Of a stretch of 24,707 bases of DNA, positions 2,963 to 17,791 are shown piece after piece. Made by a program: the position numbers and the translations under genes. The notes beneath the pieces were generated by a model. The model was not told where the DNA came from and searched no databases. It was given only the letters and a program-made list of their open reading frames with translations. The stretch is from a virus: positions 1 to 24,707 of the IMG/VR virus record IMGVR_UViG_3300032214_000294, one strand, 5' to 3'. Position 1 is the first letter of the stretch. Each line of letters starts with the position of its first letter.

Positions 2963-3526
2963 ATGATGACTAAAACATTTAATGAGTTACGCACAATCAA
3001 TGTTAATCAGCACATTGAAAAAAAAGGCAACCTATCATATCTATCGTGGGCGTGGGCAGTTGACTATTTATTGCAAGAAGACCCAACCGCGCATTGGGGA
3101 TTTCATGAGCCAAGTTATTTTGGCGAAACAGTCATGGTGTCTTGCACAGTAGAGGCTATGGGCAAATCCATGTATATGCACTTGCCTGTGATGGATAACA
3201 AAAACAACGCAATCAAAAATCCCGATTCGCGCAAAATTTCAGACGCAATGATGCGCTGTTTAGCCAAGTGCATTGCTACCTTTGGAATTGGGTTATATGT
3301 GTATGCGGGTGAAGATGTCCCGTCTGTTGATATGCCCGAGGAGGAGGCTATCGATGTTGAGGAAATGATTGACGCAATCATGGCATCGCCATCGCTTGAG
3401 CAACTGCGTGAAATTTACTTTGCAACAGTTAAATCTGCACGAGGCAATCAAGACACGATGAAGCAGTTGGAAGCCGCTAAGGATGCACGCAAAAACCAAC
3501 TGACCGAAGGTGCTGACAATGAATAA
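2963..3526 (+). CDS. Single-strand annealing protein, DUF1071 (Sak3-like) family
   Basis: The sequence from [20 protein letters not shown] through [20 protein letters not shown], then the strand-rich [22 protein letters not shown] and [21 protein letters not shown], matches the DUF1071 family of phage recombinases, which anneal complementary single strands. The 187-residue length is near the usual. The last ~60 residues are charged and helical and probably mediate oligomer or partner contacts. Two adjacent ATGs follow a GGAATC site. Together with the YqaJ exonuclease and SSB downstream it makes a Red-like recombination set. The 3' end overlaps the next gene by eight bases. Confidence 0.88.
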
Positions 3527-3893
3527 AGAAGAACTACTAGACCAGTTTGCAATTGAAGCAATGAAGGCAATCCAACATCAAGAAGGCATGGTGAGTGTGC
3601 ATAACGTAGCGATACGTGCCTATGGAATTGCAGAAAAAATGCTGGAGTGCAAACAAATTATTTTAGACAGTTGGGAATTAAAAGATGCAATTTCAGAAGA
3701 TGGCATTGAAAGGCTTGAATTAACTGTGCGGTCTGAGCGTTGTTTAAAAGCAGAAGGAATTTACACCATAACGCAGTTACTTGGATGCACCGAAATACGC
3801 TTGCTTAAAACTCCCAACTTGGGTAGAAAAAGTATCAAAGAAATTATTGAGCAATTAGATGCCCGTGGTTTAAAGTTAAGGGAACGAGTATGA
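3519..3893 (+). CDS. Small phage protein with RNA polymerase alpha-CTD-like domain
   Basis: Residues 64-124 closely resemble the C-terminal domain of bacterial Rpo[21 protein letters not shown], then [19 protein letters not shown] and a final [10 protein letters not shown]. By alignment to E. coli RpoA, the DNA-contact residues Arg265, Cys269, Lys271, Gly296, Lys298 and Ser299 are kept as Arg71, Cys75, Lys77, Gly102, Lys104 and Ser105; Asn268 is replaced by Arg74. The N-terminal ~50 residues (AMKAIQH...[12 protein letters not shown]) resemble a common small phage protein. Likely roles are binding UP-element or minor-groove DNA, or contacting host sigma or activators. The ATG at 3519 has GAAGG upstream; an upstream GTG in frame is less likely. 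Confidence 0.85.
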
Positions 3894-4516
3894 ATCAGCC
3901 GTATATAAACATCGAGCAAGGTTCAGACGAGTGGAAAACCGCACGTCTTGGTCATGTGACAGCAAGTAATATGGCAGACGTTATGTCCAAAGGCAAAGGG
4001 TCTAGCGAGGCCGTAGGGCGTTACAAATACAAGGTGCGACTGGTAGCAGAGCGACTGACGCAAACGGCTGGTGAATCGTATTCCAATGCCGCGATGGAAT
4101 GGGGTGTTGAGCAAGAACAGTTTGCCTGTATTGCATACGAATCCATTTTGGAGACTTTTATTGATAAAACAGGCTTTTGGTTGCACCCAACAATCCAATG
4201 GCTCGGTGTATCGCCCGACCGCTTGGTAGGTACAGATGGCCTTATTGAGGTCAAGTGTCCAAATACGACCACGCACCTTAATTATTTGTTTGAAAATAAA
4301 ATCCCTACGGACTATTACAAGCAAATTCAATGTCAATTATGGGTTACAGGTCGCCAGTGGTGCGACTTTGTATCCTATGACCCACGACTGCCAAAACGTA
4401 ATCAACTTTTGATTATTAGGACAGGACGAGACGAAAGTCTTATTAAGGAGATGGAAGCCGAGACCTTGCAATTCTTGTCTGAAGTCAATCAGTTAATCAT
4501 CAAACTCGAAGGATAA
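3890..4516 (+). CDS. YqaJ / lambda-exonuclease family recombinase nuclease
   Basis: The N-terminal [20 protein letters not shown] is the hallmark of the YqaJ/lambda exonuclease family. The PD-(D/E)XK active site is visible as SPD110, then E120-V-K122, with the same spacing as lambda exonuclease D119/E129/K131. The later [13 protein letters not shown] matches the conserved Q-rich helix. The enzyme degrades one strand from double-strand ends 5' to 3', leaving the 3' strand for the DUF1071 annealing protein. It is 208 residues long, close to lambda exo (226). It overlaps the alpha-CTD gene by four bases (ATGA) and is followed three bases later by ssb. Confidence 0.95.
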
Positions 4517-4519
4517 ATC

Positions 4520-4915
4520 ATGGCAGTCAATAAATTTATAGGCATCGGCAACTTAGGCAAAGACCCTGAGATGCGTTTTATGCCTGATGGCAAGGCAGTA
4601 ACCAATTTCAGTATTGCTATCAGTGAAAAGTACAAAGACAAATCGGGCGAGTCCAAGGAAGTCACAGAATGGGTCAATGTGGCGTATTTTGGCAAACTGG
4701 CTGAGATAGCGGGCGAGTACCTTAAAAAAGGCTCTAAGGTCTATGTCGAAGGCAAAATGAAAACGGAAAAGTACTCCAAGGATGGTGTTGACCGCTACAC
4801 GACCAAAATCATTGGCGAGAAAATGGAAATGCTATCCAGTAAAGGCGACACCGCTGATACGCCAAAGGCAAAGCCTGTAGAAACATTTGAAATGGATGAT
4901 GAAATTCCGTTTTAA
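4520..4915 (+). CDS. ssb: Single-stranded DNA-binding protein
   Basis: An OB-fold SSB of 131 residues. The start [20 protein letters not shown], the strand ATNFSIAIS-like segment ([13 protein letters not shown]), [20 protein letters not shown] and [16 protein letters not shown] are all classic SSB blocks. A short disordered linker leads to the acidic tip MDDEIPF, which in bacterial SSBs recruits replication and repair partners. The linker is shorter than in E. coli SSB (178 residues), as is common for phage SSBs. AAGGA lies upstream of the ATG. It is the last gene of the recombination operon and is followed by a strong terminator. Confidence 0.97.
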
Positions 4916-5865: not shown

Positions 5866-6834
5866 ATGGCACACGAACTTACTATCCGCGCAGATGGCTA
5901 CACAGAGATGGCTTTTGTTGGCGGTACACCTTGGCATGGCTTGGGTCAAGAACTTGACCAAAACGCTACCATTGAGCAGTGGCGCAAAGCCGCTGGCATG
6001 GATTGGAGCATCGAATCCACACCAGTTCGTTATGAACCGCATGGTGCAGATGGTGATTTGCTACAAGTAACAGGGCAAAATGTTTTGTTTCGTAGCGACA
6101 ATTTTGCACCTTTATCAATAGTTTCAGACCGCTATCAAATTGTTCAGCCCGCAGAAGTGCTGGAGTTTTTTTGTGATTTGGTTGAGGAATCAGGCTTTCG
6201 TTTACATACTGCCGGCACATTGTTTGGCGGCAAACGCTTATGGGCACTAGCCGAAACTGGTAAATTTGCAGAGGTAAGCGATGGCGATGGTATTGGTGGA
6301 TTTTTGCTACTGTCCACCTCGGCAGACAAATCCCTAGCCACCACAGCCCGTTTTACCAGTGTCCGTGTGGTTTGTAATAACACTCTGTCACTATCAGTTC
6401 AAAACAATGCGCACAGCGTATCGTTTACACATGCACGCAAGTTTGACCACGAACTAATCAAATCCAAATTAGGTGCGGCAGTTGCATCGTTTGATGGTTT
6501 TATGGAAATGGCTAAACATCTTGAGCGTCAACGTATTACAACAGAGCAAGCCAATAATTTTATTAAACGCATACTGTTTACGGCAGACCAGTTAAATCAG
6601 CCTGACTTTATCGTAGAAAAAAGCCGCCCATACAACAAAATCCTAGACCTATTTAAAGGCGAGGCCAAAGGTAGCGAGTTGGTCGGTGATAGCAAATGGG
6701 CACTGCTTAACTCAGTAACCGAGTATTTTGACCATCATCATCCATCACGCACAAACGATGCTCGTTTAAACAACACATGGTTTGGCAATGGCGATATGGT
6801 TAAAAACAGAGCAGTCGCTGTTTTAACCTCTTGA
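5866..6834 (+). CDS. DUF932 / phage-plasmid-like protein (TIGR03299 type)
   Basis: The start MAHELTIRADGYTEMAFVGG, then TPWHGLGQELDQNATIEQW and KAAGMDWSIESTPVRYEP, are the signature of the DUF932 family, called phage/plasmid-like protein TIGR03299. The body (FRSDNFAPLSIVSDRYQIVQ, then VRVVCNNTLSLSV) also matches. Members occur in phages and plasmids near recombination genes; the molecular function is not established. Its 322 residues are close to full length. AAAGGAAAT provides the ribosome-binding site. The stop codon TGA (6832-6834) lies inside the -35 box of the next promoter. Confidence 0.92.
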   Translation: MAHELTIRADGYTEMAFVGGTPWHGLGQELDQNATIEQWRKAAGMDWSIESTPVRYEPHGADGDLLQVTGQNVLFRSDNFAPLSIVSDRYQIVQPAEVLEFFCDLVEESGFRLHTAGTLFGGKRLWALAETGKFAEVSDGDGIGGFLLLSTSADKSLATTARFTSVRVVCNNTLSLSVQNNAHSVSFTHARKFDHELIKSKLGAAVASFDGFMEMAKHLERQRITTEQANNFIKRILFTADQLNQPDFIVEKSRPYNKILDLFKGEAKGSELVGDSKWALLNSVTEYFDHHHPSRTNDARLNNTWFGNGDMVKNRAVAVLTS

Positions 6835-7366: not shown

Positions 7367-7858
7367 ATGCCAATTAGTAAAAAAGCAGACGGATGGTACT
7401 GGGGAAGTAAAGGACCATTTGCCAGTAAACAAAAGGCAATTCAAGTTGGGCAAGCCGCCCACGCATCAGGCTTTAAAAAGGAATCACTTATGGACAATCA
7501 ACTTATTGGCACATTTGTTAGCACGCTGTTGCATTCAGCAACTCTTACGCACCTAATGCACTTTAAATCAACATCATACTCTCAGCACGTTGCCCTTGCC
7601 GCGTACTATGACACCATTCCTGAACTGGTTGACGGACTTGTGGAATCCATCCAAGGTGCGTATGAAACCATTATTGAGCCATATCCATCCATGTTTCGCA
7701 CAGGCGATGCAGAGCCGTTGGCATATTTAATAAGCCTACGCAATTACGTGCGCGATTATCGCGTTGAAATGCCACAGGATAGCGAGATTCAAAACGAAAT
7801 TGACAACATATCTAACTTGCTTAATCAGACTGTTTACAAGTTGAAATTTTTAAAATAA
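7367..7858 (+). CDS. DUF5856-like protein with an N-terminal phage WGSKGPF segment
   Basis: Residues 1-40 (KKADGWYWGSKGPFASKQKA...AAHASGFKK) resemble a short phage segment often found at the start of structural or accessory proteins. Residues 42-163, from MDNQLIGTFVSTLLHSATLT through SYSQHVALAAYYDTIPELVD, resemble DUF5856, a four-helix, ferritin-like phage family of unknown function (His and Asp/Glu residues at helix positions). An internal ATG at 7490 with AAGGA eight bases upstream could start the second domain separately. The ATG at 7367 has GGGG upstream. The gene stands just before the ParB gene. Confidence 0.7.
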   Translation: MPISKKADGWYWGSKGPFASKQKAIQVGQAAHASGFKKESLMDNQLIGTFVSTLLHSATLTHLMHFKSTSYSQHVALAAYYDTIPELVDGLVESIQGAYETIIEPYPSMFRTGDAEPLAYLISLRNYVRDYRVEMPQDSEIQNEIDNISNLLNQTVYKLKFLK

Positions 7859-7873
7859 ACCAAAGGACAAGAC

Positions 7874-8494
7874 ATGATAAAACTGGCGATTAAATATAAA
7901 AAAACCGCTGATTTAGTGCCGTATGCCAACAATTCCCGCCTGCATGACGAGACGCAACTAGGCCAATTGGTCGCAAGCATTAACGAATTCGGCTTTACCA
8001 ATCCCGTGTTACTGGATGGTGCAAATGGCATTATTGCGGGTCATGGTCGCGTTATGGCGGCTAATGTGCTTGGCTTAGAGACTGTGCCGACAATAGAACT
8101 GCAACACCTTACAGATGAGCAAAAAGCCGCTTACGTCATTGCTGATAACAAACTGGCACAAAACGCTAAGTGGGATGACGAAATTTTGCGCCTAGAGTTG
8201 CAATCGTTAAGCGATGCTGATTACGATTTGAGCATATTAGGCTTTGATGAAGCCAGTTTGTCACGTCTACTTGATGTTGCAGAAACTGCCGATGCTTTTG
8301 AGGAATATAACCAAGCCATCGAATACGAAAATAAAAATGCTGGTCCTTACAAATCATTAATTGTGCATTTTGAGAATGAACAAGATGTTGATAACTTTAA
8401 GTATTTAATTAAACAGAATTTTTCAAACAGCGCAAAGTACATATATCACCCGCTTCAGGTCAGAAAAGAAACCGAATCTAAGCGATATGTCTAA
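7874..8494 (+). CDS. ParB/sulfiredoxin-fold nuclease-domain protein
   Basis: Residues 1-110 form a ParB N-terminal domain: TADLVPYANNSRLHDETQLG, ASINEFGFTNPVLLDG, the box II motif GIIAGHGRVMAANVLG (residues 52-67) and VIADNKLAQNAKWDDEIL. In full-length ParB this fold binds CTP and drives clamping; in phages it is often fused or linked to DNA-modification enzymes and terminases. Here the C-terminal ~70 residues (PYKSLIVHFENEQDVDNFKY...) form a separate small domain with no methylase motif. AAGGAC precedes the ATG. It overlaps the glycosyltransferase gene by eight bases. I infer a role in directing modification, or in DNA recognition near packaging. Confidence 0.85.
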   Translation: MIKLAIKYKKTADLVPYANNSRLHDETQLGQLVASINEFGFTNPVLLDGANGIIAGHGRVMAANVLGLETVPTIELQHLTDEQKAAYVIADNKLAQNAKWDDEILRLELQSLSDADYDLSILGFDEASLSRLLDVAETADAFEEYNQAIEYENKNAGPYKSLIVHFENEQDVDNFKYLIKQNFSNSAKYIYHPLQVRKETESKRYV

Positions 8495-9377
8495 GCAACA
8501 ATTTCCAATTTACATTCCATCAAAAGGTCGTCATGAATCATGTATGACAATGAAAGCCTTGGATTTGATGGGCATGGATTATTACGTTATTGTCGAAGAC
8601 CAACAATACAATGATTACGCCTCTGTAATTGATAAGCGCAAATTGCTTGTGCTTGATATGGATTACAAACGTACATACGAAACGTGCGACCACCTTGGAG
8701 ATGAGAAAAGCAAAGGCGCAGGACCTGCACGCAATTTTGCATGGGACCACGCAATAAGCCTTAATTCAGGTTGGCACTGGGTAATGGATGACAACATACG
8801 CAGTTTTCGTATATTTAATAAAAACGAAAAGGTAAAGTGCGAAACGCCTGACTACTGGCGTGCAATGGAGGACTTTACATTACGATTCAGTAATGTTGGT
8901 ATGTCAGGACCAAACTACACTTTTTTTGCACCATCTAGGCAGAAAAAGCATCCTATGATAGTCAATACGCGCATTTATTCGTGCAACTTTATACGCAACG
9001 ATTTAAAGTTTCGTTGGCGTGGTCGGTATAACGAAGACACAATTTTGTCCTTGGATGTGCTGAAAGATAACTGGTGCACGATATTGTTTAACCAATTTCT
9101 ACAAGAAAAAATGGTCACGCAAGCCCTTAAAGGCGGTAACACTGCCGAGTTTTACGCTAAAGAGGGAACGGCTAATAAATCCAAAATGATTGTGCAAGTG
9201 CACCCTGATGTGGCACGTTTAGCCTATCGCTATGGTAGGGCGCATCACCATGTTGATTACAACGTGTTTAAGAAAAACGCATTTAAGGTGCGTACTGACA
9301 TTAATTCTGTTAAAAAGCCCGTTTACAAATTTAATCTAATAGAAAAACACCATGACACTGATGCATCAGATTTATAA
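8487..9377 (+). CDS. TET-associated glycosyltransferase (TAGT) family protein
   Basis: This 296-residue protein matches the TAGT family by its ordered motifs: FPIYIPSKGR (6-15), GAGPARNFAWDHAI (77-90), WVMDDNIRSF (98-107), GRYNEDTILSLDVLKDNWCT (179-198) and the late HPDVARLAYRYGRAHHHVDY (about 241-260). The DDN plays the part of the GT-A metal-binding DxD, and the NED is a candidate acceptor-side base. TAGTs were predicted as companions of phage TET/JBP dioxygenases that glycosylate hydroxymethylated bases in DNA. No dioxygenase or methyltransferase lies in this window, so the acceptor is uncertain. It overlaps the ParB gene by eight bases and the radical SAM gene by 26. Confidence 0.85.
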   Translation: MSKQQFPIYIPSKGRHESCMTMKALDLMGMDYYVIVEDQQYNDYASVIDKRKLLVLDMDYKRTYETCDHLGDEKSKGAGPARNFAWDHAISLNSGWHWVMDDNIRSFRIFNKNEKVKCETPDYWRAMEDFTLRFSNVGMSGPNYTFFAPSRQKKHPMIVNTRIYSCNFIRNDLKFRWRGRYNEDTILSLDVLKDNWCTILFNQFLQEKMVTQALKGGNTAEFYAKEGTANKSKMIVQVHPDVARLAYRYGRAHHHVDYNVFKKNAFKVRTDINSVKKPVYKFNLIEKHHDTDASDL

Positions 9378-10308
9378 CCAACATTTATTATCTGCATGCC
9401 CACCGGATGTCGATTTAACAGAATGGACAGAATTTAGAACTATGATGGCGCAAGCCTCTAATCTAGAGGAACTTGACCATCCATTACAGATAGACGTTGA
9501 GTTAAATGCGGGCTGTAATATGGCTTGCCCGTTTTGCATACATGGCTACGAAAAGATTGCAAATAACAAACTGGATAGAAAAAAGTTTGAAAAGGTGCTG
9601 AAGGAGGCTGTAAGCATTGGCGTAAAAGCGGTTAAGTTTAATTACATTAACGAGCCGATGTTACGCAAAGACCTTGAGGAAATTATCCGATGGACACGCG
9701 ACCAAGGCATCATTAATATTTACATGGTGACTAACGGCACATTGCTTACGCCTAAAAGACGTGAATCGCTGATGCAGTCAGGTTTAACCAAGTTATTTGT
9801 ATCCCTTGACGCTGTAACGGCAGAAACGTACAACAAACAGCGGTTATCGGGACAATTTAATAAGGTGGTTGCTAACGTACTGGCGTTTATTAAGGAACGC
9901 AACGAATTAGGTCAACAGTTCCCGCTTGTGCGCGTAAGTTTTCTTAAAAATAAAATTAACATACATGAGGAAGCAGAATTTACCGAGTTTTGGACAGGTA
10001 AGGCAGATTTGATAGCGTTTCAGAAAATGAACGAAGTGCCTGACAAAGATACTGGCCTAACCATCGCAGATGTTGATATGCCTACAAAGGGATGTGATTT
10101 TCCGTTTAAACAATTGGTTATTGACGATGATGGCGAGATACTGCCTTGCTGTAAGTTGGCGGGTAAAAAACTAGCATTAGGGCATATAGATACTATGACA
10201 TTGGCACAGGCATGGAAATCACCTAAGATGCAACACTTACGCCTAATACATAGTAGCGATGATTGGCAGAAGCACACGATATGTCGCAACTGTATGCTTA
10301 ATGACTAA
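9352..10308 (+). CDS. Radical SAM protein with SPASM-like C-terminal cysteines
   Basis: The 4Fe-4S motif C55xxxC59xxC62 (GCNMACPFCIHGYEK) defines a radical SAM enzyme. YMVTNGTLLTP, FVSLDAVTAETYNKQR and VRVSFLKNKIN match the barrel strands. The C-terminal part holds C248, C266, C267, C311 and C314 in a SPASM/twitch-like layout (GCDFPFKQLVIDDDGEILPC, then ICRNC), normally holding auxiliary Fe-S clusters. Such enzymes modify peptides, nucleosides or sugars by radical chemistry. The 26-base overlap with the TAGT gene suggests joint action on the same product, perhaps a modified base or its sugar. The substrate is unknown; a peptide substrate cannot be excluded. Confidence 0.88.
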   Translation: MTLMHQIYNQHLLSACPPDVDLTEWTEFRTMMAQASNLEELDHPLQIDVELNAGCNMACPFCIHGYEKIANNKLDRKKFEKVLKEAVSIGVKAVKFNYINEPMLRKDLEEIIRWTRDQGIINIYMVTNGTLLTPKRRESLMQSGLTKLFVSLDAVTAETYNKQRLSGQFNKVVANVLAFIKERNELGQQFPLVRVSFLKNKINIHEEAEFTEFWTGKADLIAFQKMNEVPDKDTGLTIADVDMPTKGCDFPFKQLVIDDDGEILPCCKLAGKKLALGHIDTMTLAQAWKSPKMQHLRLIHSSDDWQKHTICRNCMLND

Positions 10309-10778
10309 TGCCTACCATACCCACGTATGCCCTATGTGGGGAATTAGGGTGCAAGAATCCTCGCAGTAAATTTACCTCATCGTGCATACAACATGGAGGT
10401 AGGGATGAACAGGTATACAACCCTAAGTACAACGCTAACAGGGCTAAATACAATAAAAAGTACAACACTAAACAATGGGAAGCCCTAAGGCAAAGGCAAC
10501 TTAGTAAGTACCCATTGTGCGCGGGCTGTCAGGCAGAAGGTCGCATAGTCCCTGCTAATGTAGTTGACCACCTATTCCCGTGGACACACATAAGTGAGCA
10601 AGCGTTTTACATTAACCGTTTTCAGAGCCTATGCGCTACGCACCACGCTACCAAGACCCAATTAGAACGACACGGCATATACAGAGCATTTGGTATGCCC
10701 GACAAGGACTATGCTCGTTCAGACTACGCAAGGGTCATGGGCGTGGTTGACCCGTCAGATGCAGAGGCAGAAGTTTGA
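10308..10778 (+). CDS. HNH endonuclease of the packaging module
   Basis: The core, QWEALRQRQLSKYPLCAGCQ followed by VVDHLFPWTHI and FQSLCATHHATKTQLE, is a beta-beta-alpha-metal HNH nuclease. The VDH supplies the first histidine, CxxC and CxxHH hold structural zinc, and the final HH completes the site. An extra N-terminal block with three cysteines (YALCGELGCKNPRS...SCIQHGG) may bind another zinc. In cos-type phages such a nuclease, encoded next to the terminase genes, aids terminase cleavage. The ATG overlaps the rSAM stop as TAATG, linking the modification cassette to the packaging genes. Length is 156 residues. Confidence 0.92.
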   Translation: MPTIPTYALCGELGCKNPRSKFTSSCIQHGGRDEQVYNPKYNANRAKYNKKYNTKQWEALRQRQLSKYPLCAGCQAEGRIVPANVVDHLFPWTHISEQAFYINRFQSLCATHHATKTQLERHGIYRAFGMPDKDYARSDYARVMGVVDPSDAEAEV

Positions 10779-10877
10779 AACTTAAAAATACCGACCCACA
10801 GGACAGCAAGAACGGTCATGTAATCGTTCACAATGTAATTTGACCATTGGGGGGTGATGTATTATCATCCGAACACC

Positions 10878-11348
10878 ATGAACAAAAAACCACCAGAACT
10901 TCACATCGTTGACGGAACTACACCACGCAAGGGATTTCCCACCGCGTTGCCCGACAACATTAAAAAACGAATCCCTCGCGCCGAGTGGGTGGACAATCCT
11001 GCGGCTTGGGATAAAAATAAATTCATCGAGGAAACCGCTGAGTTTTTGTATAGCGTTTACGGCATTGGCAACGACCAAGACAAACACACGCTTTCAATGC
11101 TTGCCGACCACATCGAGACTTATGTGCAATGCACAGCCGCGATAAAAAAAGGCGGGGTAATTACCAAGTTCAATAACGGGCAGACTGTAGGACCAAACCC
11201 TTACCTATCTGTGCGCAATAAAACCATGACACTCATAATTCAAATTATGAATGAACTAGGGTTAACCCCACGCAGTAGGTTATCTGCCGGCAAAGCCGAG
11301 GAGGATAGCCCTGTTGCACAATTCCTGCGAGGACCATTTGCACAATGA
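10878..11348 (+). CDS. terS: Terminase small subunit, P27 family
   Basis: The N-terminal KKPPELHIVDGTTPRKG and the C-terminal GPNPYLSVRNKTMTLIIQIM, then NELGLTPRSRLSA, are characteristic of P27-family (Terminase_4) small terminase subunits, which recognise the packaging site and recruit the large subunit. The helical middle (KHTLSMLADHIETYVQCTAA) is the oligomerisation region. I start it at 10878, where family similarity begins; an upstream ATG at 10857 adds eight residues but has its G-run only two bases away, and neither start has a well-spaced Shine-Dalgarno. It overlaps terL as ATGA. Confidence 0.88.
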   Translation: MNKKPPELHIVDGTTPRKGFPTALPDNIKKRIPRAEWVDNPAAWDKNKFIEETAEFLYSVYGIGNDQDKHTLSMLADHIETYVQCTAAIKKGGVITKFNNGQTVGPNPYLSVRNKTMTLIIQIMNELGLTPRSRLSAGKAEEDSPVAQFLRGPFAQ

Positions 11349-13018
11349 ATTGGCAAGACGGTGTAGCGTATGCACACGCAGTAGCAAAAGGCGAAATCAA
11401 CGTCTGTAACGATGTTCGTTTAGCGTGTCAGCGATTTATAAATCAACTGGAAAACAAAGAATGGGAATGGGTGTTTGACCACCGAGTACCCGACCACGTT
11501 CTTAAATTTGCGGGGACACTACAACACACCAAGGGACCACAAGCGGGCGAGGCAGTACTATTAGAGCCGTTTCAAATTTTACTTATTTGCGCAACCTACG
11601 GGTTTAGGTCAAAAAAGGATTTAAACAAACGAATGGTCACGGATGTGATTTTGTTTATTCCACGCAAGGCGGGTAAATCGACTTTGACTGCGGTGCTGTG
11701 TTTATACGAATTATTGTGCGGTGAAAGTGGACCTGAGGTTTACACACTGGCAACAAACAGAGAACAAGCCACGATTGTGTTTGATGCTTCCAAAGGTTTT
11801 GTAGAAAATATGCCCCGCGACCTAGCAACCTTGTTTAACCCGAGTAAATACAACATCAGTAAAAAAGGCGATACGCAGTCAATTTTTAAAGCGTTAAGCC
11901 GCGATACAAAAAAGTCTGGTGACGGTAAAAATCCATCGTGCGTGGTCGTTGATGAATCCGCGCAGATAACAGACAGAAACAGCATTGAAGTATTACACTC
12001 AGGTATGGTCGCTAGGCAAAATCCACTAAGGGTTTATATTACAACCGCCTCGTTCACAAAGGACACCAAGTTTTACGAGGACTTATCCATGTACCAATCG
12101 ATGCTACGTGGCGAGGCAACTGATAATCCTAGATGGTTTGGTTTATTGTACGGGCTAGACCTTGGCGATGATTGGCGCGACCCAGTTAATTGGGCGAAAG
12201 CAAATCCAATGCACGGGATTTCTGTTTATGAGGATGCCATTGCACAACGAGCAGAAGAAGCCAAACATAAACCTGCCGCGCTAAACGAGTTTTTGTGTAA
12301 AACACTAAACGTCTGGGTTTCTGCTAATGCCGCATGGGTTGACCGCGCACATTGGGATGACCCTGCATGCACAAATGTCGCAAACCTTGGTCGTGTGCCT
12401 GAAGCGGTATTTATAGGATTTGACTTGGCGGCAACGCGAGATTTAAACGCAGTTTGTACATTAAAGCGATACGGAGAATTGGATTACGAGGCAGAGTGGC
12501 AGTTTTTCTTGCCCGAGGATAGCCTAGCGTTTATACCTAAACATTACCTAGATATTTTTCAAGTAGCGATTGCAAGCGGGATATTAAAATTAACCGAAGG
12601 CAACGTAATGGATGACCGCGAAATTAGTGAATACATCATTAATCAGCAGTGCCAAAAGTACAATGTTAAGGAAGTAGGCTATGACGCATACAATGCGGCA
12701 AGTTTAGTTGCTCGTTTGCACGATGCTGGTGTGCCAGTAAAAAAGGTTGGTCAAGGCATGGCAGTTTTAAACAATCCAAGCAAGTACATTGAAAAATTGA
12801 TACTGAACAAGCAAATTAAGCATAACGGCAACCCGTTTGTTGGATGGCAACTTGGTAACTGCGAGTGCTATACGGATGTAAACGGCAACATTAAGGTGCG
12901 CAAAAACGAGGCAGACAAAGCGGCAAAGGTTGATGGAATCATATCCATGATTATTGCGGCACATTGCTCATTGGATAACCCATTTGTGAGTGATAGTTTT
13001 GGTTTTCGGTCGTTTTGA
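11345..13018 (+). CDS. terL: Terminase large subunit (Terminase_1 / HK97-like)
   Basis: This 557-residue packaging motor has an N-terminal ATPase with Walker A PRKAGKST (106-113), Walker B CVVVDES (199-205) and the coupling motif ITTAS (232-236). The C-terminal RNase H-like nuclease carries the first acidic residue in FIGFDLAATRD (D360) and a later one in EVGYDAYNAASL. It cuts concatemers and drives DNA into proheads docked at the portal. Length matches HK97-type large terminases. It overlaps terS by four bases and is followed 30 bases later by the portal gene. Confidence 0.96.
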   Translation: MNWQDGVAYAHAVAKGEINVCNDVRLACQRFINQLENKEWEWVFDHRVPDHVLKFAGTLQHTKGPQAGEAVLLEPFQILLICATYGFRSKKDLNKRMVTDVILFIPRKAGKSTLTAVLCLYELLCGESGPEVYTLATNREQATIVFDASKGFVENMPRDLATLFNPSKYNISKKGDTQSIFKALSRDTKKSGDGKNPSCVVVDESAQITDRNSIEVLHSGMVARQNPLRVYITTASFTKDTKFYEDLSMYQSMLRGEATDNPRWFGLLYGLDLGDDWRDPVNWAKANPMHGISVYEDAIAQRAEEAKHKPAALNEFLCKTLNVWVSANAAWVDRAHWDDPACTNVANLGRVPEAVFIGFDLAATRDLNAVCTLKRYGELDYEAEWQFFLPEDSLAFIPKHYLDIFQVAIASGILKLTEGNVMDDREISEYIINQQCQKYNVKEVGYDAYNAASLVARLHDAGVPVKKVGQGMAVLNNPSKYIEKLILNKQIKHNGNPFVGWQLGNCECYTDVNGNIKVRKNEADKAAKVDGIISMIIAAHCSLDNPFVSDSFGFRSF

Positions 13019-14730: not shown

Positions 14731-15367
14731 AGGTTTTATGGATTGGGCAAATGAGTTTAATGCTAGTGAAAAGCCTTTGCCTATGTTTCTAAATCACAAT
14801 GATTTAGGTATGCCAATGGGTGAGTGGAATTCTTTTGAATTTGACCAAGATGGCATGACTGCAAAAGGTCGTTTGTATACCAATACTGTCGGCGGTAACG
14901 ACCTGTATCAAATTCTAAAAGAATCTCCTAAAATGTTTGGCGGTGTTTCTGTTGGCGCATACGCAGACGAGGCACAAATGGTTGACGCGGATGGAAACCT
15001 CGTTGATGACGATACCGAAGAAGCATATTTTCAAATTACCAAAGGCGGACTGCGAGAAGTTAGCGTGGTGATGTACCCTAATAATCCCAATGCAGAAATT
15101 CACAAACTGGAAGCGTTTGACGCTAAAGGGCATGTGAACCCACGGGTTTTGGAAAAGGCTTTGCGTGATGCTGGCCTTAACAAAAAGGATGCGACCACCG
15201 CATCTAGTATCTTCAAGCGTGTATTGGAACAGCGTGATGCTACCAATAAACCTGAAGTAACCCCAACTCAGGGTGAGCCTGATGCGGTGGTAAACGAAGC
15301 CGATGCACTGCTTGCCGCTTTTGAAGCGCGTGAGTTAGCGAAGGCACTTGAAAAACGCATTAAATAA
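14579..15367 (+). CDS. HK97-family prohead protease
   Basis: Recognisable blocks are EARVTTWGAREGADGRKF, FNYQPEGFMDWANEF, PLPMFLNHNDLGMPMGEW with the catalytic His, FGGVSVGAYA with the nucleophilic Ser, and GGLREVSVVMYPNNPNAEI. This serine protease cleaves the scaffold region from the major capsid protein during maturation. The C-terminal ~90 residues (HVNPRVLEKALRDAGLNKKD onward) form an alanine/lysine-rich tail, also seen in phages where the protease carries its own scaffold-interacting segment. GGGGTGAT lies six bases before the ATG. It ends ten bases before the major capsid gene. Confidence 0.92.
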   Translation: MKNLTLICEAKVQLAVGANEAQNPTGMMEARVTTWGAREGADGRKFNYQPEGFMDWANEFNASEKPLPMFLNHNDLGMPMGEWNSFEFDQDGMTAKGRLYTNTVGGNDLYQILKESPKMFGGVSVGAYADEAQMVDADGNLVDDDTEEAYFQITKGGLREVSVVMYPNNPNAEIHKLEAFDAKGHVNPRVLEKALRDAGLNKKDATTASSIFKRVLEQRDATNKPEVTPTQGEPDAVVNEADALLAAFEARELAKALEKRIK

Positions 15368-15377
15368 AGGACTTATT

Positions 15378-16721
15378 ATGTCAATGGAAAAAGTACTGGA
15401 AAAAGTCGACGCAATCGAAGCGTCTAATTTGACCAAAATCGAAGCGGTTAAGGCCGAAGTAGCAACTACAGTTGAATCTGCTAAAACAGAAATTCAAGAA
15501 AAACTAACTGCGCTTGAAGCAAAAGTTGCATCCATTCAAATGCCAGAGTTTATTCGCGCCCCTGCTAAAACAGTGCGTAGCGATGTTAACCGCATGGTTA
15601 AAGAGCAACTGCGTGACTTTCAAAAGTCCGGCGGTCGCATGGATAAGGAAATTAAACTATGGGAATCCGTTGAACAGCATGACGCATATTTGCGTGAAGC
15701 CTCAACGTTGACAGGTTCTGGTGCTGGCATTGGTGGTCGTACTGCGTATGACCCCGTATTCCACGCATTGCGTTTAATGAATCCTATGCGCGGTGTTTCA
15801 CGTAACGTGGCAACTGATGGTTCGACCTATCAGTTTCGCGCAAAAACGGGCAACGCAGGTCCAGCATGGGGATATACGATTCAAAACAACGGTGCGGCAA
15901 CAACTGAAGCCACAACAATTTGGCAATTAAATCTTGCCGATTTGAACGTTCAGTTTCCAATTCGTACCGCCGCTTTGGATGATATTGATGGTTTGGAATC
16001 AAACGTCGTTGACGACATGTTGAGCGAATTCAGTGCCGCTGAAGGCAATTCAATGATTATCAACAATGACCAAGCCGGTTCAACCACCACAACAACTGGT
16101 GCGACTTCTGGTTTGCGTGGTTTGAATTCCTATCCCGGTGCTAACGCTTCTTATACAGGCGGAACAATTAGCGCGGCGGCTTACGGTTCTAGCGGTACTG
16201 CTACATCCGATGGCGTACATAGCATTGCTACGTATGACCAATTAACCACTAATGGTTTTGGAACTGCAAACAATGTCGCATTTGCTGACCTTATCAACTT
16301 CATTCACTTGTTGCCACAACAATACTGGACACCATCTGCTCGTTTTGTTGTATCACCTTTGATGTTGGCTGGTATTCGTGGTTTAGTTGACGACAACGGC
16401 ACGCCTGTGTTTGAGCGTATGTCACCTTTGGTTTATGAAGGCATTGTTGGTAAGTTGTTGGGCTTTGACGTTGTGGTGAATAACTACATTGAAAGTCCGA
16501 TTGCTAACGGCGCATCTGCCGGCACTAACAGCCAGTACCCAATGTATTTTGGTGACTGGAGCCGTGGTCATACAATCGTGGACAGGCTTAATATGGTATT
16601 ACGTCGCTACGACCAAACAGCCCCCGGATTTATCACATTTTTTGGGGAAAAACGTTTGTGCGCCAGTGTTGTTGACCCTTTTAGCATTATTCGCTATCGT
16701 TCAACCGCTACCGGTGCTTGA
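15378..16721 (+). CDS. Major capsid protein, HK97 fold, with N-terminal delta (scaffold) domain
   Basis: The first ~105 residues are a charged helical region (EKVLEKVDAIEASNLTKIEA, then EKLTALEAKVASIQ) like the HK97 delta domain that scaffolds assembly and is then cut off. The conserved capsid part begins at LREASTLTGSGAGIGGRTAY (R at 106), close to the HK97 cleavage position after residue 103. It continues through NPMRGVSRNV, FPIRTAALDDIDGLESNVVD, and ends QTAPGFITFFGEKRL. The ATG at 15378 has AAAGG upstream. It is 447 residues long, of which about 340 would remain after cleavage. A strong terminator follows the stop. Confidence 0.94.
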   Translation: MSMEKVLEKVDAIEASNLTKIEAVKAEVATTVESAKTEIQEKLTALEAKVASIQMPEFIRAPAKTVRSDVNRMVKEQLRDFQKSGGRMDKEIKLWESVEQHDAYLREASTLTGSGAGIGGRTAYDPVFHALRLMNPMRGVSRNVATDGSTYQFRAKTGNAGPAWGYTIQNNGAATTEATTIWQLNLADLNVQFPIRTAALDDIDGLESNVVDDMLSEFSAAEGNSMIINNDQAGSTTTTTGATSGLRGLNSYPGANASYTGGTISAAAYGSSGTATSDGVHSIATYDQLTTNGFGTANNVAFADLINFIHLLPQQYWTPSARFVVSPLMLAGIRGLVDDNGTPVFERMSPLVYEGIVGKLLGFDVVVNNYIESPIANGASAGTNSQYPMYFGDWSRGHTIVDRLNMVLRRYDQTAPGFITFFGEKRLCASVVDPFSIIRYRSTATGA

Positions 16722-16726
16722 TGAAG

Positions 16727-16758
16727 TGGGGGGCTTCGGCTCCCCATTTTTTCTTTTT
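16727..16758 (+). terminator. UUCG-loop terminator between the two capsid genes
   Basis: TGGGGGGC pairs with GCTCCCCA (one G-T pair) around the ultra-stable TTCG loop, followed by TTTTTTCTTTTT. It is a strong intrinsic terminator five bases after the major capsid stop codon. Partial readthrough would make capsid message abundant relative to the downstream tail genes. I see no evident promoter in the 16 bases between it and the next gene's ATG. Confidence 0.9.
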
Positions 16759-16774
16759 GTTAAAGGAAATTAAA

Positions 16775-17791
16775 ATGAGTGCAACCCAAAAGATTCTTGA
16801 CGGCATTAAATTAGCGATTGCTGAAAATCGTAAAGTAACTATTGACTTACGCGAAGCATCGACACTGACTGGTTCAGGCTTGGGTATTGGTGGTCGCACT
16901 TATTTTGATGACGCTTTTGCCGCATTGCGTTATGCAAACCCTTTCCGTATGGGTTCGCGCAATATTAAAACACCTAATTCATCGGCAGTGCAATTTGTAG
17001 CAAAAACCGGTAACGCAACTGGTGCAAATCCGTGGAATCCTAATGCAACAGTTAACACTGGTTCGCCTGATACGGCAACATCATTTTGGGTAATGCCAAC
17101 ACGAATTATTAACGCGCAACTACCTATTCGTACTGCGGCGTTTGATGATATTAACGGCATTGAAGAAGCGTTAATGACCGACCTTGCACTAGAGTTTAGT
17201 CAGCAAGAAGGCGCATCGATGGCAACAAATAACGACCAAGCAGGCTCGACAACAACGACAACAGGCGCAACATACGGTTTGCGTGGTTTAGATATTTATT
17301 TAAGTGGTTCTGCGGCCTATGGTACAAGCGGAACGGCTATTACAAACGGTATTCACACATTGGTAACTACATCGCTTGGTGGTGTTACGCCAACGTACAA
17401 TAAAATTACAAACATTGCAAATTCATTGCCCGCCCAATACTGGTGTTTGCCTACAACTGCATGGCACATGACACCAACAATGATTCAAACGTTGCGTCAA
17501 TTAAAAGATACGCAAGGTTTGCCATTGTTTTTAGAATTAGGCGAAGCGGGTGAAGGCGGTGCAGTCGGTTCAATTTTTGGTTGGCCTGTTATTCCTAATT
17601 CATTCTTGTCTGTTGATTTTCCTATTTATTTAGCAAATTGGGATAGATTTTTAACCATCGCTGACGTTGAAGAAATGTCGGTGCAAGTGTTTGAACAAAC
17701 CGCGCCCGGATTTGTGACCCTGTACGCAGAGAAACGAGTTATTAGTACTGTGCGTGACCCGTTTGCGGGCGTGCGTGCTAGTGCGGCATAA
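16775..17791 (+). CDS. Second HK97-fold capsid paralogue lacking the delta domain
   Basis: This 338-residue protein aligns along its whole length to the mature part of the preceding capsid protein. Shared blocks are LREASTLTGSG.GIGGRT (here at residue 25), PIRTAA.DDI.GIE/LE, NNDQAGSTTTTTGAT and QTAPGF. It has only 25 residues before the shared block, against 105 in the first copy, so it carries no scaffold region. It may be a minor capsid subunit, for example at vertices, co-assembling with the cleaved major protein; a relic of duplication is also possible. The ATG at 16775 has AAAGGAAA upstream. No frame damage is seen. Confidence 0.88.
   Translation: MSATQKILDGIKLAIAENRKVTIDLREASTLTGSGLGIGGRTYFDDAFAALRYANPFRMGSRNIKTPNSSAVQFVAKTGNATGANPWNPNATVNTGSPDTATSFWVMPTRIINAQLPIRTAAFDDINGIEEALMTDLALEFSQQEGASMATNNDQAGSTTTTTGATYGLRGLDIYLSGSAAYGTSGTAITNGIHTLVTTSLGGVTPTYNKITNIANSLPAQYWCLPTTAWHMTPTMIQTLRQLKDTQGLPLFLELGEAGEGGAVGSIFGWPVIPNSFLSVDFPIYLANWDRFLTIADVEEMSVQVFEQTAPGFVTLYAEKRVISTVRDPFAGVRASAA

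Follow-up and report, generated by a model that had tools for sequence, protein, structure and literature searches.

The TAGT glycosyltransferases of phages T2 and T6 (PF20691), the beta-glucosyl-HMC-alpha-glucosyltransferases, add glucose to hydroxymethylcytosine (HMC) that has already been glucosylated (PMC13216743; PMC13390438), and solitary TAGT homologues, encoded without an alpha- or beta-glycosyltransferase, were present in 288 of 753 phage genomes surveyed (PMC13216743). Fusions of ParB to Methyltransf_23 or N6_N4 methyltransferases have also been described, phage ParBs included (PMC12704722), as has a ParBc adjoining the carboxymethyltransferase CmoX (PMC12783734), and genes 1–5 of Gordonia phage CaiB encode ParB, TET/JBP, pyrophosphorylase and kinase proteins before the terminase (PMC9302106). 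Here we describe a cassette in a 24,707-nucleotide record of a freshwater-type phage (IMG/VR record IMGVR_UViG_3300032214_000294; the window), in which overlapping genes encode a ParB-fold protein, a TAGT and a radical S-adenosylmethionine (SAM) enzyme of the SPASM type (rSAM). The cassette falls into the unexplained solitary-TAGT group, and we favour, at somewhat better than even confidence, the reading that it is a post-replicative DNA-hypermodification module that would glycosylate DNA. Hypermodification gene sets that include ParB and precede the terminase are known already; for the trio itself, and for the correspondence between ParB tails and partner enzymes reported below, we found no description in the searchable literature, an earlier mention (Iyer et al., 2013) being possible.

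All three genes are on the forward strand and lie as the original prediction placed them, the first two overlapping by 8 bases and the second and third by 26, with open reading frames and profile matches in agreement. The ParB-fold protein (7874..8494, 206 aa) matches PHROG 620 (4.6e-54) and PF02195 (1.3e-5), the TAGT (8487..9377, 296 aa) matches PF20691 (3.8e-37; 128.7 bits against a curated cut-off of 27.5) and PHROG 842 (4.1e-43), and the rSAM (9352..10308, 318 aa) matches PF04055 (1.1e-13) and the SPASM family PF13186 (1.8e-13). The TAGT carries the predicted motifs PSKGR (11), ARN (81), MDDN (100) and YNEDT (181), and its AlphaFold2 model (pLDDT 84.8) aligns with GT-A enzymes of the PDB over 187–225 residues (Z 12.7–14.7, rmsd 3.3–4.9). 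A structure search of BFVD with this model returns TAGT proteins, among the matches being a T-even-type beta-glucosyl-HMC-alpha-glucosyltransferase (TM 0.57, 12% identity), while a sequence search of the PDB found no relative. The likeness to the T2 and T6 enzymes is one of family and GT-A fold; the T-even TAGT differs in using glucosylated HMC derived from the products of dCMP hydroxymethylase, for which the window has no gene. Relative to near relatives, dN/dS is 0.014–0.05 for the ParB, TAGT and rSAM genes, close to the 0.011 of the terminase large subunit (TerL), which indicates that all three are maintained by purifying selection.

The nature of the substrate is suggested by the position that the cassette occupies. 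We found 428 related terminases in IMG/VR, and one isolate belongs to the lineage, Methylophilaceae phage P19250A (TerL 68%). The ParB position behaves as an exchange slot in phages of this backbone, with different genes in different genomes, and its left edge is marked by a conserved DUF5856 gene (7367..7858, forward strand; PF19174, 3.6e-18). The window and its close relatives hold ParB with a TAGT of one subfamily (TAGT1) and rSAM, and L019 holds ParB with a TAGT of a second subfamily (TAGT2) and rSAM; elsewhere the slot contains TAGT2 alongside a ParB match for which no intact gene was called (L065/L148), ParB with a histidine-phosphatase/cytidylyltransferase and TAGT2 (L145), an NAD-dependent epimerase with ParB and TAGT1 (L112), ParB with a glycosyltransferase (GT) and Tet_JBP (L071, L072, L094 and L143), or ParB with an ABC-ATPase-GNAT combination (L048, L053, L137, L108, L109 and L111). 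The Tet_JBP matches score 33–35 bits, two of them above the cut-off of 34.9 and two just below it, and the GNAT-ABC ATPase combination has been predicted to acylate nucleobases (PMC7824862). Some genomes (L059, L084 and P19250A) have neither ParB nor a C5-methyltransferase, and in two other ParB-less genomes a C5-methyltransferase is found nearby, in place of DUF932. If nucleotide-sugar-type genes and a single glycosyltransferase-like protein with no family match are set aside, the partners of ParB are enzymes with a known or predicted role in DNA modification, and this is our main argument that the TAGT acts on DNA as well. As in CaiB, a ParB-like gene belongs to a set of overlapping modification genes immediately preceding the terminase, and sister phages of the window hold ParB, GT and Tet_JBP genes in the same slot; the window differs in having a TAGT and a radical SAM enzyme in place of TET/JBP, pyrophosphorylase and kinase genes. 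DNA is the predicted substrate, well supported by context.

Two further features of the sister genomes concern the C5-methyltransferases. The DUF932 gene (window 5866-6834) is absent from the two genomes that encode them and also from L019, and a functional link or a replacement is possible. The C5-methyltransferase of one ParB-less sister phage (L150, 8211-9434, reverse strand, in G008) has the SPPC motif, which has been used to pick candidate carboxymethyltransferases CmoX (PMC12783734).

A second argument comes from the ParB protein itself. Its N-domain (approximately residues 1–140) has GHGR at position 56, containing the conserved arginine of the ParB-CTPase P motif (Box II) and common to most ParBs compared, and DNKL at 91; the PF02195 match, at 25.6 bits, is slightly below the cut-off of 26.3. 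Canonical partition proteins have helix–turn–helix and dimerisation domains, and in the window protein ParB_N alone is matched, with hits to partition-protein profiles that are partial and far below cut-off. The N-domain does match residues 10–150 of the 436 residues of a PADLOC Type II methyltransferase (PDLC03229, 3.8e-38), and its identity with the N-domain of known ParB–DNA-methyltransferase fusions, together with the exchange of TET/JBP with GT, ABC-ATPase-GNAT and the other TAGT at the same slot, makes DNA hypermodification, as the original prediction proposed, the best reading of the cassette. The fusions likewise pair a ParB N-domain of this kind with an enzyme that modifies DNA; the cassette differs in that the polypeptides are separate and the enzyme is a glycosyltransferase.

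The C-terminal tail of the window ParB (SLIVHFENEQDVDNFKYL...ETESKRYV) is of the type that accompanies TAGT1, and aligns with the tails in other TAGT1 phages. We compared 18 ParBs of fewer than 300 aa with a recognisable GHGR, a small sample in which some members are related. Mean N-domain identity is 48–54% between partner types and 52–80% within them, whereas the tails are alike only within a type, with mean z-scores against shuffled sequence of 35 for TAGT1, 66 for TAGT2, 55 for GNAT and 44 for TET, and of about 0–1 between types. The ParBs of the window and of L145, a TAGT2 partner, illustrate this, their N-domains being 66% identical and their tails unrelated. Since N-domain identity within the TAGT1 type (52%) is not above the between-type level, the matching of TAGT1 tails is not simply a matter of phylogeny. 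With a tail that matches the partner enzyme and an N-domain common to all, ParB can be read as a DNA-bound docking platform, and these alignments are most simply explained if the tail docks its partner; this offers a simple and testable model for the ParB genes that stand alongside phage DNA-modification enzymes.

The pairing of these enzymes, which the original prediction thought might be new, is recurrent and not a singleton. A profile built from ten rSAM sequences (51–86% identity to that of the window) identified 69 viral loci, on contigs that are not fully independent, and among the 27 with both flanks sequenced a ParB gene is found within 2.6 kb in 23, a TAGT gene in 23 and both in 22. 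There are two gene orders, ParB-TAGT-rSAM and ParB-rSAM-TAGT, with terminases of several kinds behind them, and the rSAM is 81–86% identical between the window and phages with the other TAGT subfamily, where the TAGTs are about 20% identical. We found no rSAM triad in isolated phages, in which the best rSAM matches have 23–32% identity. A ParB-TAGT2 arrangement without rSAM does occur in isolates, namely Lactobacillus phages phi jlb1 and c5, Haloarcula phage HHTV-2, Escherichia phage 683R6 and Nocardia phage NTR1, the last with an unannotated gene in place of ParB before the TAGT. These resemble the window in having ParB followed by an overlapping TAGT upstream of the terminase, with an annotated cos site just before the pair in c5, and differ in the TAGT subfamily, the ParB tail and the lack of rSAM. 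The searchable papers contain no report of a function for the ParB-TAGT pairs of these isolates, and we found no report of modified DNA in the publication consulted on HHTV-2.

The position of the cassette directly before the packaging genes is real and general. The rSAM gene overlaps by 1 base, at 10308 (TAATG), an HNH endonuclease gene (10308..10778; PHROG 144, 3.2e-22), and genes for the small (10854..11348; PF05119, 4e-14) and large (TerL, 11345..13018; PHROG 9, 6.6e-130) terminase subunits follow, all on the forward strand. The original prediction also suggested that modified DNA could be marked for packaging; the association is one of position only, and a packaging role is not supported. 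Between the HNH gene and the terminase, one and the same 10-bp stretch (window 10797..10806; CACTGGACAG in the relatives, CACAGGACAG in the window) holds the ends of contigs L003 and L004/L154 and the start of L044/L155. Its best interpretation is a cos-type genome end, with the HNH gene as the last gene before it. Two of these contigs, L004 (G032, 19,923 bp) and L044 (G017, 17,254 bp), derive from one sample and sum to 37.2 kb, the longest relatives being 36.7–39 kb, and we infer that they represent one near-complete phage, the stretch between the contigs being unread.

The rSAM has the expected CxxxCxxC motif (CNMACPFC at 55-62), and the second set of cysteines noted earlier is borne out by the SPASM match and by an alignment in which five further cysteines (248, 266, 267, 311 and 314) are family-invariant, a number that would suit one auxiliary cluster. 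Among proteins of solved structure it is closest in sequence to BtrN (4.7e-14) and BlsE, a cytosylglucuronate decarboxylase (4.4e-10), both of which also head the Foldseek list and act on a cyclitol or a sugar; however, their identity to the rSAM is about 19%, and other SPASM enzymes align equally well, VIA-align ranking SkfB, SuiB, MoaA and BlsE level (Z about 19–20, rmsd 3.0–3.5, 244–270 residues). Cellular relatives with 34–40% identity are present in Rickettsiales, Pelagibacter, Prochlorococcus and two archaeal bins, in nucleotide-sugar and glycan loci, and in the first three of these groups a PF00483 nucleotidyltransferase gene stands directly before that for rSAM. Because of these relatives, and of BtrN and BlsE, we favour tailoring of the sugar over preparation of the base, so that where the original prediction had radical chemistry either prepare or finish the product, finishing is the better fit. 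Nucleotide-sugar-type genes adjoin some of the TAGTs, which fits with a sugar pathway. In L032 the trio is followed by an HldE/CTP_transf_like nucleotidyltransferase gene (2425-2823), a hint that with some cassettes the phage itself makes an activated sugar or alditol as donor.

A viperin-like role, in which the rSAM would make a modified nucleotide and the glycosyltransferase would be unrelated, draws on matches of the rSAM core to viperin profiles (pVip 6.4e-15) and to viperins in structure. The profile match is weak and partial, the curated viperin cut-off is not reached (45.6 of 180 bits), a SPASM domain is present and the rSAM is constantly linked to ParB and TAGT; we rejected viperin as an identity for the rSAM and consider such a role very improbable.

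Several observations weigh against hypermodification of DNA. We found no biochemistry in the literature for a ParB-linked TAGT or for the rSAM family, and many SPASM/Twitch enzymes, peptide maturases included, match the rSAM structure equally well or better, on account of which we abandoned reading its substrate from structure. The cellular rSAM relatives appear by context to act in glycan synthesis and not on DNA, as would be expected if the TAGT and rSAM made a modified sugar and attached it to a phage protein, lipopolysaccharide or capsule, superinfection exclusion being one possible purpose. Proteins and glycans are common GT-A targets, and relatives of the rSAM lie within long glycosyltransferase- and methyltransferase-like islands on phage contigs, with neither ParB nor TAGT present (L211, 4932-5903; L220, 4962-5939). 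We nevertheless judge glycosylation of the surface or of virion proteins to be unlikely, as it leaves unexplained the ParB linkage of the 23 loci, the partner-specific ParB tails and the exchange with Tet_JBP and ABC-GNAT at the slot. The other difficulty for hypermodification is the source of an acceptor. Profile searches agree with the original prediction that the window encodes no TET/JBP, thymidylate-synthase fold or C5-methyltransferase, and the near-complete relative (G032 and G017) likewise lacks matches to Tet_JBP (PF12851), Thymidylat_synt (PF00303) and DNA_methylase. The same Tet_JBP search matched in four sister genomes; PF00303 matches controls and T4-like TAGT phages, and neither the window nor its relatives. 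The genomes of jlb1, c5, HHTV-2 and NTR1, deposited as complete, have no match to PF00303 or PF00145, nor to PF12851; that set included no positive control for PF12851, and its absence there relies on the profile having matched in the sister phages.

These absences make it probable that the acceptor is not made elsewhere in the phage genome by known routes, as had been one suggestion, although an unrecognised enzyme or the unread stretch may hold a source. The original link of TAGTs to bases made by TET/JBP enzymes also needs refinement, since the T2 and T6 members show that a TAGT does not require TET (PMC13216743). One alternative is that the rSAM, or a methyltransferase, prepares the acceptor, radical chemistry functionalising a canonical base that the TAGT then glycosylates. 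We recognised no further enzyme in the near-complete relative that would functionalise a base, and an rSAM that is 86% identical where TAGTs are about 20% identical is not tied to one TAGT; on the other hand, complete isolates that hold ParB and TAGT without rSAM or known hydroxylases suggest that the TAGT can work without the rSAM, and the cellular relatives of the rSAM point to sugars, so that we think this quite unlikely. A modification made by the host and decorated by the TAGT, the phage supplying finishing enzymes only, would explain why the ParB-TAGT genomes examined show no acceptor-making enzyme, but would call for suitable bases in lactobacilli, Haloarcula and Nocardia alike. To our knowledge no host-made hydroxylated DNA base of the required kind has been described, and we regard this explanation as improbable.

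Most close relatives of the window have a fourth gene. In L002, L003, L004, L006 and L007, which have about 91–95% DNA identity over the cassette region, the gene directly before ParB encodes a class I methyltransferase of 271 aa (Methyltransf_23, 3.7e-8; dN/dS 0.04–0.07), at a site corresponding to window positions 7859..7873; it is absent from the window and from L005. The gene also adjoins the trio on other backbones (L023, L030 and L175). Loss through direct repeats was considered and rejected, as the 16-bp repeat suggested by a blastn overlap is just common RBS/ATG-like context.

If the cassette does modify DNA, then ParB would bind phage DNA through its conserved NTP-binding-type N-domain and recruit its partner through the partner-specific tail, and the TAGT would move a sugar from a nucleotide-sugar onto a base or onto a modification already there. 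Either before or after this transfer, the rSAM may tailor the sugar through the kinds of reaction that BtrN- and BlsE-type enzymes perform (oxidation, epimerisation or deoxygenation), with the class I methyltransferase of most close relatives presumably adding a further group, and the product could shield phage DNA from host nucleases.

Other features of the window lie outside the cassette. A recombination-type set at 2963-4915 comprises a 187-aa early protein (2963-3526), a YqaJ exonuclease and SSB; no polymerase was seen in the window or in the open reading frame list of the near-complete relative, and replication of the window phage is probably host-dependent. Two tandem genes that resemble one another (15348-16721 and 16718-17791) both match the major capsid region, and the second match is also present in relatives (36–52% identical), which may reflect either gene duplication or a second capsid-like protein. 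A module with the consensus MPI.KK.DGWYWGSKGPF..KQKAI.VG.AAHASGFKE is N-terminal to DUF5856 (window 7367-7480), and the same N-terminal module is joined to another C-terminal domain in L112 (6126-6240).

In summary, the trio is widespread and not a curiosity, and with it the TAGT branch of phage DNA hypermodification gains a radical SAM enzyme. Complete ParB-TAGT genomes without known sources of hydroxylated bases sharpen the question left open in the literature on solitary TAGTs, and the existence of isolates with the simpler ParB-TAGT pair makes virion DNA open to direct analysis. It is conceivable, though doubtful, that the docking platform puts a tailored sugar on DNA that has not first been hydroxymethylated, the ParB tails serving as interchangeable adaptors; if true, this would be a route from canonical base to glyco-base not described so far, and possibly a new disguise of viral DNA.

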